Positions 23,557 through 29,104 of a DNA stretch of 64,000 nucleotides are shown here, piece by piece. The stretch lies in NCBI GenBank assembly GCA_017858515.1, contig JAFMBM010000001.1, positions 62,001 to 126,000 of the forward strand, in the 5' to 3' direction. A program made the translations under genes and the position numbers. The notes beneath the pieces were generated by a model that was not told where the DNA came from, made no database searches, and saw only the letters and a list, made by a program, of their open reading frames with translations. Positions within the stretch are counted from its first letter, which is position 1. Each line of letters begins with the position of its first letter. Origin of the DNA: Cryomorphaceae bacterium (GTDB taxonomy: Bacteria; Bacteroidota; Bacteroidia; Flavobacteriales; Schleiferiaceae).

Positions 23557-24774
23557 ATGAGAATAGCCATTATTGGTGCAGGTGCTGCGGGCTATTTTGC
23601 AGCCATTTCGGCCAAAACCCATCACCCTAAGGCAGAGGTTTGTCTTTTTGAAAAGTCGAGCCAAACCCTTGCGAAGGTGCGTATTTCTGGAGGCGGGCGG
23701 TGCAATGTTACCCACGCTTGTTTTTCTATATCTGAGCTGAGCAAAGCCTATCCGCGCGGTGGGAAGAATCTAAAGAAACTCTTCCCCATTTTCAATGTTG
23801 CCGATACCATTGAGTGGTTTGAGAAAAGAGGCGTGCCTTTAAAAGTAGAGGAAGATGGAAGGATGTTTCCGCTCAGCAATTCTTCGGAAAGCATCATTCA
23901 ATGTCTTCAAAAGGAAGCAGATAGATTAAAGATTAAATTGTTTCTTCAATCGGCTATTGTGGCCCTTCGCCAAGCAAACAATACCATCGAACTTTCTTTT
24001 CAAAGGAAAGATACATCCACCCAAAACTTTGATAAAGTAATTGTTACCACAGGCGGATCGCCCTCGCTAAAGGGCTTGGCATGGCTAGAAGAATTGGGAC
24101 ACACCATTGCACCACCCGTTCCTTCTTTGTTCACCTTTAATATGCCCAAGAACCCCATAACTCAGCTTATGGGATTGGTGGCCGAGAAGGTTCAGATTCG
24201 CATTCAAGGCACTAAACTAAAATCAGAAGGCCCTTTGCTTATCACTCATTGGGGAATCAGCGGACCGGCGGTACTTATCCTTTCTTCTTTCGGCGCACGC
24301 ATATTGAGCGATTTAAATTATCAATTCAAAGCCCAAATTAACTGGGTGAATGAAAACAACAGCAACAGAATCGTAGAACATCTGCAAGAGATCATTCAGC
24401 TTCATCCCAAAAGAAAACTCAGCAATGAAAGACCCTATGCGTTGCCTGACCGACTTTGGACTTATTTATTGACTAAGATTGAAGTATCTCCTGATAAGAT
24501 TTGGGGAGAGATGGGCGGCAAGGCGATGAATAAAATGGTGAGTATCTTAAGCAATGATGTCTATGAACTCAATGGTAAAACCACCTTTAAAGAAGAGTTT
24601 GTGACCTGTGGGGGCCTCTCGTTTGAAGATATAGATGGATCTAGTCTGCAAAGCAAAAGGATAAAAGGACTGTATTTCGCGGGGGAAGTATTGGATGTAG
24701 ACGCCATAACAGGCGGGTACAATTTTCAAGCCGCATGGACCACCGGTTTTATAGCCGGAAAGCTGTTGGAATAG
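23557..24774 (+). CDS. BaiN/HI0933-family flavoprotein oxidoreductase
   Basis: NAD(P)/FAD-dependent oxidoreductase, 405 residues. The FAD Rossmann motif is at the very N-terminus: IAIIGAGAAGYFAAISA, then CLFEKSS. The family hallmark VRISGGGRCNVTHA follows at about residue 45. VIVTTGGSPSLKG (~155) and the C-terminal GLYFAGEVLDVDAITGGYN, which contacts FAD, match the BaiN/HI0933 family. The physiological substrate is unknown in most members. The last 29 bases of the gene, including the stop, lie inside a 31-bp sequence repeated at 26924-26954. Confidence 0.93.
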   Translation: MRIAIIGAGAAGYFAAISAKTHHPKAEVCLFEKSSQTLAKVRISGGGRCNVTHACFSISELSKAYPRGGKNLKKLFPIFNVADTIEWFEKRGVPLKVEEDGRMFPLSNSSESIIQCLQKEADRLKIKLFLQSAIVALRQANNTIELSFQRKDTSTQNFDKVIVTTGGSPSLKGLAWLEELGHTIAPPVPSLFTFNMPKNPITQLMGLVAEKVQIRIQGTKLKSEGPLLITHWGISGPAVLILSSFGARILSDLNYQFKAQINWVNENNSNRIVEHLQEIIQLHPKRKLSNERPYALPDRLWTYLLTKIEVSPDKIWGEMGGKAMNKMVSILSNDVYELNGKTTFKEEFVTCGGLSFEDIDGSSLQSKRIKGLYFAGEVLDVDAITGGYNFQAAWTTGFIAGKLLE

Positions 24775-24776
24775 AA
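24746..24776. repeat. 31-bp direct repeat, copy 1 (3' end of the flavoprotein gene)
   Basis: GTTTTATAGCCGGAAAGCTG followed by TTGGAATAGAA; it encodes the final residues FIAGKLLE and the stop. The other copy, at 26924-26954, differs at one base (A to T). The 2,147 bp between the copies carry two lipoprotein genes and a T9SS-tail remnant. Confidence 0.9.
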
Positions 24777-24912
24777 CTCAATTGTGCGGATAGAGATCAA
24801 GTAAAATAAACCCATACATTGCATACAATGTATGGAAACTAGACATTAAACGAGCCTACTTGAGTATAAATGAAACAGCGGGGTAGTGCGGCTCACTTAT
24901 GAGTTTTAGATA

Positions 24913-25053
24913 CTAATTTCCTGTTGTCAAAGGGTCTAGGCCTACAAGTCCTTTCATACCAACGTTGCCTGTTAACACAAGCCTGCCTACAGAGTCGTAG
25001 ACTTCAAATTCAGTAATATGTCTTCTATCTCGGAGGCGGTAATTCAAAGGGTT
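24913..25053 (-). pseudogene. Remnant of a T9SS type A C-terminal domain
   Basis: Directly after the TAG of the 25054 lipoprotein, and in its frame, the minus strand reads NPLNYRLRDRRHI, TEFEVYDSVGRLVLTGNVG, then MKGLVGLDPLTTGN and TAG (24913-24915), then YLKLIS. This fits the T9SS tail pattern: YPNP, VYDxxGRLV, Lxx-L-xxGxYxL. It is either a separated tail of the lipoprotein gene or debris from another cargo gene. Two in-frame stops bracket it. Confidence 0.65.
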
Positions 25054-26166
25054 CTAATAGTACAAAGGCATGAGTACATCTAGATAAACCTTGTTGCCAA
25101 CGGTGTTTTCTGCATTGATAAAATTTAGATGACACAAGCCTCTTTCAATGCTGTACCATTTATCTAAATTTCCATACAAGTTGCCAGGTAGAATTAGAGG
25201 ATCCAAAGAATTGCCATCAGAGTCTGTTGCCAATAGTTTTATAGGATGCGATACTAGGTCTATTAAATCTTGCTCCAAACTATACTTAGGTAGAAATAGG
25301 AAACGAGTTGAAATCGCTGTTCCATCATTAACAATTAGACTAAAAGTCTTGCCGTATGAATAAGAATGGGCATTTTCTACACGATTGTAGTAGAGTCCCA
25401 TGGGATCGGTTTTTTTAGGCTGAGTGAAATCCGAAAGCTTAAAATGCTTTCCCCAATGTGTGTATTGAATGCCCATTTTTTGGTTGAGTGAAACGGCAAT
25501 AGTTGTATCTGACTGAGATAAGCTCACGTGTAGAATGTTGTCCTTTGAAATAGTAAAATAGGCTTCGGTTTCTACCAATTTACCATCGCCATAACCCTTT
25601 GATACTTTGTAATCTAAAGTATGCATTGTACCCAGTGAGTCTATGATACCAACAATATTGTGGTCCATGGTGTAGTTGCGCTTCTGTTTTTCTCTGAAGT
25701 CTAATAAGCGAACCACCAAATACTTGGTTTTAAAATTGTACTCAAAAGGGAATCGCTCTTCAATATGTACAGATTCTGGGGCAAAGGACTTGCTTATGTA
25801 TCGTTTGGCCTTGGCTTCTTCGTACACATTGAATCCGTGTTTTCCTTCCACAACAAACTGATTGGCATTGGTTGCAACAATTCTATAGGGTTGATAAAGC
25901 GTGTCCAGGGTTTCTAAATCAATGGTATTGGTTTTCGGATTAAAGACTTTTATTTTTCCATTAGATGAAAGGGTTAACAGAATAGGATTTCGCACTTCGG
26001 AAGATTTTGAAGTGATATAGTAATCAACAACCCCATTTAGTATTGAATCTGGAATAGAATAGGTTTCTTTGAACCAATGGAGGTTTTTTGAGTTTTGATT
26101 TCGGCTAAGGTTACTACATGAATAATAACAGGCGAAAGCAATTAGCAAGAGTTCTTTTCTGAACAT
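25054..26166 (-). CDS. Putative lipoprotein, propeller-like (DUF4221-like?)
   Basis: A 370-residue predicted exported protein. The N-terminus MFRKELLLIAFACYYSC offers two possible lipobox cysteines (Cys13, Cys17). The body is beta-rich, with short repeated strands such as NPILLTLSSNGKIKVFN and TYFTIS-like text, suggesting a beta-propeller of the kind found in DUF4221/BF3164-type Bacteroidota lipoproteins; this family assignment is tentative. It ends LMPLYY-stop, followed in frame by a T9SS-tail remnant. It lies in the segment bounded by the 31-bp repeat, 61 bp downstream of the small Cys-rich lipoprotein gene on the same strand, and the two are probably one operon. Confidence 0.7.
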   Translation of the reverse strand: MFRKELLLIAFACYYSCSNLSRNQNSKNLHWFKETYSIPDSILNGVVDYYITSKSSEVRNPILLTLSSNGKIKVFNPKTNTIDLETLDTLYQPYRIVATNANQFVVEGKHGFNVYEEAKAKRYISKSFAPESVHIEERFPFEYNFKTKYLVVRLLDFREKQKRNYTMDHNIVGIIDSLGTMHTLDYKVSKGYGDGKLVETEAYFTISKDNILHVSLSQSDTTIAVSLNQKMGIQYTHWGKHFKLSDFTQPKKTDPMGLYYNRVENAHSYSYGKTFSLIVNDGTAISTRFLFLPKYSLEQDLIDLVSHPIKLLATDSDGNSLDPLILPGNLYGNLDKWYSIERGLCHLNFINAENTVGNKVYLDVLMPLYY

Positions 26167-26227
26167 TTATTCGGAATAAATAGAAGTGATTCGTATTGAA
26201 ATGAATCACTTCTAGTTGTTTAGTAGA

Positions 26228-26656
26228 CTAATTGATTATTGGATGACCATCTCGTTTCATAGCATCGAGCAGTCTTTGATCAGTTATTACATCTCCTTCA
26301 CTAAGAGGAGAGATTTCACCATTATCAATCAAGTATGCGTACACATCAGCAAAAGTACCTGTGGTTAGAGACTGAATACCATCTTCGATTCTTTCACCAT
26401 AACAAGGGGTCTCTTCGTAACACTCTCCATGATTTGTAATGCCACATTTCGCACCACAGCCTGTATCACCTCCTGGTTCTTCGGCAGGAGTCGCACATAT
26501 TACGGGGCCATATTCACCTGTATTTTGCCCTTGACTCAATTCCAAAAATATATCTGAATCATCTGGTATTACATCTTTTGAGCAAGACACTAGCAAAGCA
26601 AATGCTGCTGTAATAAATACTGTCATTGAGACAGTTCTAAATTTTGTTGTTTTCAT
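26228..26656 (-). CDS. Small Cys-rich lipoprotein
   Basis: A 142-residue predicted lipoprotein. The leader MKTTKFRTVSMTVFITAAFA is followed by the lipobox LVSC (ATG 26656 chosen over an in-frame start at 26707 that would place 17 residues before it). An acidic linker (DVIPDDSDIFLELSQ) leads to a Cys-rich segment: CATP, CGAKCGITNHGECYEETPC (seven Cys in total after the lipidated one). The layout, a propeller-like lipoprotein next to a small Cys-rich exported protein, recalls the NVEALA/BF3164 gene pairs of Bacteroidota, but I see no NVEALA motif. The function is unknown. Confidence 0.68.
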   Translation of the reverse strand: MKTTKFRTVSMTVFITAAFALLVSCSKDVIPDDSDIFLELSQGQNTGEYGPVICATPAEEPGGDTGCGAKCGITNHGECYEETPCYGERIEDGIQSLTTGTFADVYAYLIDNGEISPLSEGDVITDQRLLDAMKRDGHPIIN

Positions 26657-26923
26657 TGTAATGAAGTTTAATATTACAATGGTAAATTTAGTCTTTACCC
26701 CCCCCATATGTTAATGACTTGTTAATTAACATTCATAACTACTTAGAATAGAAACAATAGCTTTTGTTGAGATTTTGAGTTGTACATAAAATAAAAGTAT
26801 AGTTGAGATGACTCGATCCTACAAGATTTAACTTTTACAGTTTCTTTATTACACTGAAATAATTTGATGTAAAGAAGCGATAGAGTAGCTCATTCACTGC
26901 ATTCCACAGCATCTCCCCTATAT
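26657..26923. other. Intergenic stretch upstream of the Cys-rich lipoprotein
   Basis: AT-rich; includes a run of eight C residues at about 26698-26705 and no open frame of note. A TAAATTTA sequence on the minus strand near 26673 is one base from the Bacteroidota -7 element, too weak to call. Confidence 0.35.
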
Positions 26924-26954
26924 GTTTTATAGCCGGTAAGCTGTTGGAATAGAA
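26924..26954. repeat. 31-bp direct repeat, copy 2
   Basis: Matches 24746-24776 at 30 of 31 positions. Here it is not coding: it sits ten bases from the stop of the winged-helix gene. It is the orphan copy of the flavoprotein gene's 3' end. Confidence 0.9.
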
Positions 26955-26964
26955 TCAGCCTGCT

Positions 26965-27873
26965 TTATTTATCAATGATAAACTTATAGCCAATCCCCCT
27001 AATGTTCACAATCTTGAGCTTGGTATCGTAGGCGAGTTTCTTGCGAAGTTTAGACATAAAGACATCTAAGGTTCTTCCAACATAATCCCCTTGGTCGCCC
27101 CAAATGATGTTCAATAGGGTATCTCTCTCTAAAACCTGATTCTCCGATTGATATAAAAGATACAGAAGATCGGCCTCCTTGCTGGTTAAATCGGTCTTTT
27201 CTTCTTTGTAATACAAGGTCATATTTCTTTTATCGAAGCGGTAATCGCCCAAATGCAGAAGATCTGTTAGGTCTTCATCGGGCTGTTTCTTCTTGCGAGT
27301 AAAGAGAAAGAAGCCCAAGCCTATGCCACACAAGGCCAATGCAATTAAGATTGGAATAAGCAGACTTTCTTCTGATTCAGCCCTCGTTCCTATTCGGTTT
27401 TCTGTTGATGCGGTGGTGCTGGTATCGTTTGAAATATATGGAGGAAGTGCGCCTTCTAAAAAGAGCACTTTTACAGTGTAACAGGCCTTGGCAGTTTCTC
27501 TTTTAGAACAAGAAATATTCTCTGTGCTCTCTCTTCTAAACTCATAGCTGTAGGCCACCTCTCCACTTGTGCAATGCAGTACTTCTACCAGATAATCTTC
27601 AAAAACCTGGGCCTTTCGCAATGCCGCCATCACAGTGACAACCAATTCCTCTGGCTTAAATTGAAATTCAGCCTCAAAGGAAACCGTATAGGTATTTCCT
27701 TCGCGCACAACGGGTAGCACCTCAGAAATAGAATCGCCTGAGCTTATGAGCAATGCATGCCCTACTTCTCTAAGCGCTACTTTTATTCTGCTTTCTGTTA
27801 ATTCAGAATCCATAGCATGGCCTGCAATAGAAAACAGAGAAAGAAGAATAAGGTGGATGTATATTTTGCGCAT
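26965..27873 (-). CDS. Membrane-anchored OmpR-type winged-helix regulator
   Basis: A one-component transcription factor of 302 residues. A signal peptide (MRKIYIHLILLSLFSIAGHA), a ~140-residue periplasmic domain with two Cys (HCTSG, SCSKRE), one transmembrane helix (LLIPILIALALCGIGLGFFLF, about 170-190), a basic stop-transfer, and a C-terminal OmpR/PhoB winged helix (YRFDKRNMTLYY ... LTSKEADLLYLL ... VGRTLDVFMSKLRKKL ... IRGIGYKF). The topology is the reverse of ToxR: sensor at the N-terminus, DNA-binding domain at the C-terminus. There is no receiver domain or kinase partner. It is divergent from a periplasmic propeller protein (28003) across 129 bp, and that shared region is a likely binding site. 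Confidence 0.88.
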   Translation of the reverse strand: MRKIYIHLILLSLFSIAGHAMDSELTESRIKVALREVGHALLISSGDSISEVLPVVREGNTYTVSFEAEFQFKPEELVVTVMAALRKAQVFEDYLVEVLHCTSGEVAYSYEFRRESTENISCSKRETAKACYTVKVLFLEGALPPYISNDTSTTASTENRIGTRAESEESLLIPILIALALCGIGLGFFLFTRKKKQPDEDLTDLLHLGDYRFDKRNMTLYYKEEKTDLTSKEADLLYLLYQSENQVLERDTLLNIIWGDQGDYVGRTLDVFMSKLRKKLAYDTKLKIVNIRGIGYKFIIDK

Positions 27874-28002: not shown

Positions 28003-28815
28003 ATGAATAATAAAATCATCCTCTCTTCTGTTAGCACCTTAGTATTACTGCTCTTTCTACCATCTTATAAAGCTGAGACTAACGATCGTCTTCTTGAGGT
28101 AGAAACAAGCAGCAGCCCTTCACACTGCAGCTATCTCACCCAGTATACGATGGATACAAACTATCAATTTGTACGTACTATTAATCTGCTGTATAAAGAT
28201 AGCAAGGGTACTATGTGGATTGGTTCTGAATTCGAAGGACTTTGCAAGTACGACGGACAAGTGTACACCTATTATTCTATTAAAGACAAGAAAGGTAATC
28301 AATCGATTCTTGACATACAGGAAGATGCGAAAGGAAGTATTTTGGTTCAAACTCGGTTGGGCATTTGTCGTTTAAGGGAAGGGGTATTTGTGCCGGTGTT
28401 GCCAGCTGAGAAGACTGATTCCAGTACTCCTTGGATTAGCGCTAAGGAGGACCTTTGTTTTAAGACAGGTATAAAAGGTGAAATTTATAGATGGAATGGC
28501 TCTGTATTAACTCATCACTATTTACCTTCATTTAATAGTCCAAATGAAGAGAAGAAACACATAGCCTATCCGAATCAGGTGTATTCGACCCTAAAAGACC
28601 AACAGGGAAATCTATGGTTGGGTACAATGGCAGCAGGAGTACTTCAATACCAAGACAAAAGCTTAATACAAATTGCCTCTAAAGGGTTGGCTCATACCGT
28701 AAATTCATTGTTTAAAGACAGCAAGGATAGACTTTGGATCGCCAATAATGAAGGTGTTTTTTTTATACGAGAACCAGAACATATTTCCTGTTTTAAAAAG
28801 CGAACCCAAATCTAA
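28003..28815 (+). CDS. Periplasmic regulator-propeller protein, N-terminal piece
   Basis: A signal peptide (MNNKIILSSVSTLVLLLFLP) is followed by beta-propeller blades of the two-component-regulator type, each with a GxxWxG core: LYKDSKGTMWIGSEFEGL, LKDQQGNLWLGTMAAGV, FKDSKDRLWIANNEGVFF. At a run of eight T (28757-28764) the frame changes; this piece then runs out in about 17 residues of unrelated text. With seven T the reading continues as GVFLYENQNIFPVL into the next piece. Such propellers normally head hybrid two-component sensors, but no transmembrane helix or kinase follows. Confidence 0.75.
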   Translation: MNNKIILSSVSTLVLLLFLPSYKAETNDRLLEVETSSSPSHCSYLTQYTMDTNYQFVRTINLLYKDSKGTMWIGSEFEGLCKYDGQVYTYYSIKDKKGNQSILDIQEDAKGSILVQTRLGICRLREGVFVPVLPAEKTDSSTPWISAKEDLCFKTGIKGEIYRWNGSVLTHHYLPSFNSPNEEKKHIAYPNQVYSTLKDQQGNLWLGTMAAGVLQYQDKSLIQIASKGLAHTVNSLFKDSKDRLWIANNEGVFFIREPEHISCFKKRTQI

Positions 28816-29104
28816 GCAAGGGGTTATTTCAGCAGGAAATCAAAGTTTAGCAAAGGTATTTACAATAGAAGAAGACAAGAGCGGAGCTATTTGGTTTGTT
28901 ACATTAGATTCAGGGGTGTGGCTGTATAAAGAAGGGCAACTGTCTCAATTACAATCAAAAGAATATTCCATAGGAAAGGATGTGCGATCTATTGAGAGAG
29001 ATAATAAAGGATTGTTATGGATTGGCTTTGCGAATGGGGCACTGAGTACCTACGATGGAAAGACTTTTAAACAGATAAACGCCAGGGAGATAGATGGTTG
29101 CTAG
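28748..29104 (+). CDS. Periplasmic regulator-propeller protein, C-terminal piece
   Basis: Continuation of the 28003 protein after the T8 frameshift. It has two more propeller blades (EEDKSGAIWFVTLDSGVWLY and ERDNKGLLWIGFANGALSTYD) and then ends at INAREIDGC. There is no Y_Y_Y domain, transmembrane helix or kinase, so the repaired protein (about 366 residues) is a free-standing or truncated propeller. About 130 bp without a gene separate it from the convergent 78-residue gene. Confidence 0.68.
   Translation: MKVFFLYENQNIFPVLKSEPKSKQGVISAGNQSLAKVFTIEEDKSGAIWFVTLDSGVWLYKEGQLSQLQSKEYSIGKDVRSIERDNKGLLWIGFANGALSTYDGKTFKQINAREIDGC

Follow-up and report, generated by a model that had tools for sequence, protein, structure and literature searches.

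The analyzed window, a 64,000-nucleotide stretch of genomic DNA from a Cryomorphaceae bacterium, carries a two-gene cassette on its minus strand, in which the gene for a small Cys-rich lipoprotein is followed, after a gap of 61 bases, by the gene for a larger secreted protein (Table 1). Both open reading frames proposed by the first-pass annotation, which had described a larger and a small Cys-rich lipoprotein gene from the sequence alone, were confirmed on the minus strand, and each gene is present as a single copy in its own genome. The spacer between the genes is predicted to form a hairpin, and the pair as a whole lies within an AT-rich segment bounded by direct repeats.

Table 1. Features of the gene pair and of the segment that holds it (positions in the window)
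Feature	Position	Strand	Remarks
Direct repeat, copy 1	24746..24776		extends over the final codons of the flavoprotein gene (TIGR00275) and its stop codon
AT-rich repeat-bounded segment holding the pair	24777..26954		GC 0.368, compared with 0.421 for the window
46 codons in frame after the TAG of the large gene	24916..25053	-	resembles a degraded secretion tail on inspection by eye
Large gene; secreted, probable lipoprotein, read as divergent DUF4221-type	25054..26166	-	370 aa
Predicted hairpin, putative attenuator between the small and large genes	26175..26220	-	12-bp stem, 10-nt loop
Small Cys-rich lipoprotein gene	26228..26656	-	142 aa; ATG at 26656, stop at 26228
C8 tract (G8 on the minus strand)	26698..26705		41 bases upstream of the small-gene ATG, within the possible longer reading
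Direct repeat, copy 2	26924..26954		2178 bp from copy 1

The small Cys-rich lipoprotein

The small protein has a canonical lipobox (LVSC, Cys25). Beyond it, Cys residues 54, 67, 71, 79, and 85 form a five-Cys core that precedes a C-terminal tail, and the Cys-dense string quoted by the first-pass annotation, CGAKCGITNHGECYEETPC, was confirmed within the protein. A longer reading from an ATG at position 26707 would give a product of 159 aa. Searched alone, the protein reached no Pfam or NCBIfam cut-off. The absence of an NVEALA motif, already noted from the sequence, was borne out, as neither the leader motif nor a Pfam match to NVEALA (PF14055) was found in the small protein, and no NVEALA match was found across its own genome. 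An AlphaFold2 model built from a two-row alignment had a pLDDT of 41.2. The surface-export signal of lipoproteins has been described by the consensus C-X-K-(D/E)2-X (PMC5080379). Counted from the lipobox Cys, the small lipoprotein of the window reads C-S-K-D-V and its homologue in genome G013 (see below) reads C-T-K-E-S; each has one acidic residue and lacks the second one of the consensus, making the signal partial.

Conservation of the pair in a second genus

Homologues of each protein were sought in 60 genomes, including its own. A significant homologue of the large protein (E 1.6e-4) was found only in G013, a genome from a different genus of the same family, and the only convincing homologue of the small protein (E 2.3e-5) came from the same genome; two more matches of the small protein (E 0.03 and 0.08) were dismissed as chance. 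The two G013 homologues are adjacent, with order and strand as in the window, and the pair was thus present in 2 of the 60 genomes. Compared with 1000 shuffles, the window-G013 alignments scored at z = 17.1 for the small and 13.9 for the large protein. Four of the five core Cys residues (54, 71, 79, and 85) are kept in the small homologue, together with the blocks GEYGP and CYEET, and these four would allow two disulfides.

In G013, the pair has on one side an outer-membrane-type gene, itself downstream of alaS, and on the other a gene on the opposite strand (names assigned by eye). The locus is unrelated to that of the window, and its neighbors are unlike the flavoprotein and regulator genes found there. 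Because G013 keeps the two genes side by side, in the order of the window but at an unrelated locus, the pairing is not a matter of chance.

A profile of the small protein matched 2 of 88 family genomes and 2 of 395 order genomes, these being the window genome and G013; among wider genome contigs its sole match was WGMI01000043.1, counted as belonging to G013, and no homologues were found in viral contigs or plasmids. The two-row profile of the large protein revealed no further full-length member in 345 class genomes; one partial match outside G000 (68 positions with one stop inside) was regarded as chance. Nothing convincing for the pair came from PADLOC or PHROGs, and weak hits across Pfam, NCBIfam, PHROGs, and PDB (Chordopox_G2, phosphoglycolate phosphatase, phrog_25332, spectrin, xyloglucanase, and trypsin-like chains) were also judged to be chance. 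By sequence, the small protein is a new and rare family with two known members.

Relationship of the large protein to DUF4221

The large protein has a hydrophobic N-terminus and a Cys, and because AFAC/YYSC is no textbook lipobox, the protein is a probable rather than a certain lipoprotein. On its own it reached no Pfam or NCBIfam cut-off; in particular, it gave no DUF4221 (PF13970) match at E ≤ 1 and did not reach the gathering score of this family, and a PF13970 search of G000 returned no match. The G013 homologue, in contrast, passed the DUF4221 cut-off of Pfam (28.6 vs 23.4 bits). Aligned against 20 DUF4221 proteins, the two-row profile of the window and G013 large proteins gave a probability of 93.5% (E 2.4e-7), compared with 0.1% for the reversed DUF4221 family used as a control. 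Another set of 12 DUF4221 proteins gave 62.6% (E 7.2e-5) with the same profile, and the single window sequence gave 8.5% in hhalign, with a score of 27.5 compared to a maximum of 21.2 among 20 shuffles. We read the large protein as a divergent DUF4221-type protein.

The DUF4221 family has a solved member, 3s9j, and its profile weakly matches (E 2.2e-4) the surface-layer protein 1l0q, which we take to be a propeller. The beta-rich, propeller-like character initially ascribed to the larger lipoprotein is putative and follows from the profile-level DUF4221 link rather than from a structure, the AlphaFold2 model from the two-row alignment having a pLDDT of only 29.7; its lipid anchor is probable only. 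The 46 codons in frame beyond the large gene, which by eye resemble a type IX secretion tail, yielded nothing convincing from Pfam or from phmmer against local ORFs.

Small Cys-rich partners of DUF4221 genes

PF13970 was present in 16 of 295 class genomes, the source of the 30 DUF4221 loci compared here. A partner was defined as an ORF of 40-210 aa with a signal-like start, at least 3 Cys after residue 24, and an end at -50 to +250 of a start. Under this rule, whose thresholds were chosen after a first look at the loci, a small secreted ORF was found just upstream of the DUF4221 gene in 12 of 30 loci and in none of 30 beta-lactamase-family control loci from the genomes of the DUF4221 set plus G013 and G000; when relaxed to at least 2 Cys, the counts were 16/30 and 0/30. 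By the same rule, the other 18 DUF4221 genes were without a partner having at least 3 Cys. Among the 12 positives, L037 may be no partner at all, since it resembles the 5' half of a disrupted DUF4221 gene; conversely, the rule missed a 68-aa peptide with 6 Cys at L048.

In G477, the small gene that closely precedes a DUF4221 gene encodes a canonical NVEALA peptide. Other upstream partners include peptides of 59-82 aa and lipoproteins, the latter forming three mutually dissimilar sets: the window and G013 proteins; L031, L033, and L035; and L022, L023, and L036 (L022 and L023 adjoin longer proteins that score below the DUF4221 cut-off). The last two sets resemble the small protein of the window in being lipoproteins of ~140-200 aa with a Cys cluster, encoded upstream of a DUF4221-like gene, but no sequence similarity was detected between it and any of the six. 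Nine partner or neighbor proteins of DUF4221 loci had no Pfam family above the cut-off. To judge from the sequences compared, the small partners of DUF4221 genes are not one family.

The window pair fits this pattern in that a small secreted Cys-rich gene lies directly upstream of a gene that is DUF4221-type at the profile level only. The large protein shares with DUF4221 proteins its size, its secreted and probably lipid-anchored nature, the profile-profile match, and the upstream small Cys-rich gene, and the likeness extends through the G013 homologue, which is above the Pfam cut-off; it differs in falling below detection when searched alone and in having no third, CxxC-type gene downstream. 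The small protein likewise resembles NVEALA peptides in being small, secreted, and Cys-containing and in having its gene just ahead of that of its partner, as in G477, but it is a 142-aa lipoprotein rather than a peptide of ~70-90 aa, shows no motif or Pfam match, and has a different Cys pattern.

Other arrangements were also observed among the DUF4221 loci. A gene for a small CxxC-type lipoprotein directly follows the DUF4221 gene at L020, L032, L033, L035, L043, L044, and L048; three of these lipoproteins were scanned and had no Pfam family above the cut-off. Genes for RND efflux components (pump or adaptor, by eye) lie beside 4 of the 30 loci (L020, L029, L044, and L048). DUF4221 tandem arrays without a small Cys-rich partner were found at L026, L040, L045, and L049 (G530:C7) and at L025 and L041 (G665:C21).

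The intercistronic hairpin

RNA structure prediction gave the window spacer a fold of -16.2 kcal/mol with z = -4.77. Hairpins with z below -3 were predicted in 8 of 12 non-redundant pairs with spacers of at least 41 bases. In a control set of 39 spacers, drawn from 20 stretches of 11 genomes and each separating two other genes in the same orientation, 6 fell below this value (P 0.0014); in an earlier control set, 2 of 15 did so. The 12 pairs include L023, whose spacer had z = -2.02, whereas L050 was omitted as a near-copy of L030, and pairs whose spacers measure at most 16 bases (G013, L031, L034, L035, and L036) fell outside the comparison. The hairpin sequences differ among the pairs. No hairpin separates the G013 genes because they overlap; instead, their large gene opens with a strong predicted hairpin (z = -2.55 for this stretch). 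The predicted structures suggest that the hairpin would most likely serve to give more of the small product than of the propeller.

A repeat-bounded AT-rich segment

The two copies of the 31-bp repeat are identical at 30 of 31 positions, with 0 such repeats expected in shuffles. The repeat core occurs twice in the whole genome, where no third copy of its 21 bases was found with up to 3 mismatches. Shifted versions of itself aside, the segment is the lowest-GC 2.2-kb stretch of the window. We give slightly less than an even chance to its being an insertion that entered the 3' end of the flavoprotein gene through site-specific recombination, an explanation that is compatible with the cassette reading developed below. 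The repeat over the gene end with only two genomic copies, the low GC content, and the different location of the G013 pair are all consistent with insertion, whereas the segment contains no recombinase gene and no convincing regulator match was found beside nine flavoprotein loci. None of these nine relatives shows an empty site or a junction next to the flavoprotein gene, and no empty site appears among the genus mates because the flavoprotein match is also missing in all four of them. The earlier suggestion of movement as a unit agrees with the repeat, the GC content, and the patchy occurrence, but no recombinase gene in the segment, second copy in the genome, or empty site was found to go with it, and the mobility of the pair is putative.

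Proposed role of the pair and alternatives

We consider it somewhat more likely than not that the cassette couples a small disulfide-rich secreted protein to a DUF4221-type propeller lipoprotein, with the excess small protein being bound by its own propeller. We read the large protein as a divergent DUF4221-type propeller and the small one as its own ligand-like partner. A single transcript would begin upstream of the small gene, and the hairpin between the genes would stop or stabilize most transcripts, so that production of the small lipoprotein would exceed that of the propeller. The two proteins would be exported and lipid-anchored in the envelope, possibly at the surface, where the small protein may fold around two conserved disulfides and be bound by its propeller acting as a receptor, carrier, or neutralizer. 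The small partner would be the variable part of such a system, and the propeller would be the constant part.

Each half of the pair has a known relative in kind, and the two genes together resemble a two-gene kit that is widespread but unstudied in Bacteroidota, of which they would be a rare and distant form. The first-pass annotation had compared the pair to NVEALA peptides with BF3164-type propellers and allowed for a divergent or separate pair. This analogy was right in kind given the G013 pair, the DUF4221 link, the Cys-rich upstream genes, and the NVEALA peptide in G477, but the propeller family indicated here is DUF4221. The open-licence papers searched contained no mention of NVEALA or DUF4221, and BF3164 appears in one of them; on Cys-rich peptides and propellers, nothing relevant was among the papers listed. 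As a tentative generalization, DUF4221-type propellers could be the unchanging half of pairs whose other half is one of many small, secreted, Cys-rich proteins unrelated to each other, NVEALA being one of them, with hairpin-driven excess of the small product and with the window pair as a new rare class that includes a new small-protein family. If the propeller is indeed the constant half and the small half is exchanged, it would offer a way to find secreted Cys-rich proteins of Bacteroidota that are still unnamed and to probe their roles, and the window pair, having no third gene, would be a small version of such a system.

A redox or metal-handling unit of the envelope, in which the propeller serves as a dock for a Cys core engaged in metal binding or disulfide exchange, appears unlikely. 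The CxxC-type lipoprotein genes that often follow DUF4221 genes (seven loci) and the efflux genes near four loci speak for it; however, both the third CxxC gene and the efflux neighbor are absent from the window pair and from the G013 pair, and the Pfam searches returned no family linked to redox or metals. It is similarly doubtful that the small protein is secreted to act against neighboring bacteria, with the propeller providing self-protection. A small, Cys-rich product apparently in excess over its partner would suit this role, as would the replacement of partners between loci and the patchy, repeat-bracketed occurrence of the pair, but no toxin or defense family was matched, and lipid anchoring argues against a diffusible agent. 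That these are two unrelated envelope genes merely lying side by side would agree with the occurrence of the pair in two genomes only, yet it is very improbable given that order and strand are kept in a different genus with different neighbors and that each protein is rare alone.

Neighboring features

Three features beside the pair were recorded in addition. The C8 tract, which is the only G/C run of at least 7 in the window, lies directly after the ATG at 26707 and is a candidate slippage (on/off) site. A gene at 26965-27873, on the same strand and upstream of the pair, encodes a protein, secreted or anchored in the membrane, that ends in a winged-helix DNA-binding domain (Trans_reg_C) at its C-terminus, and this regulator-type protein may control the pair. 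Farther along, at 28003-29104, a gene for a Reg_prop propeller sensor is interrupted by a frame change and reads as two ORFs that overlap, which represents either a broken gene or a sequencing error.
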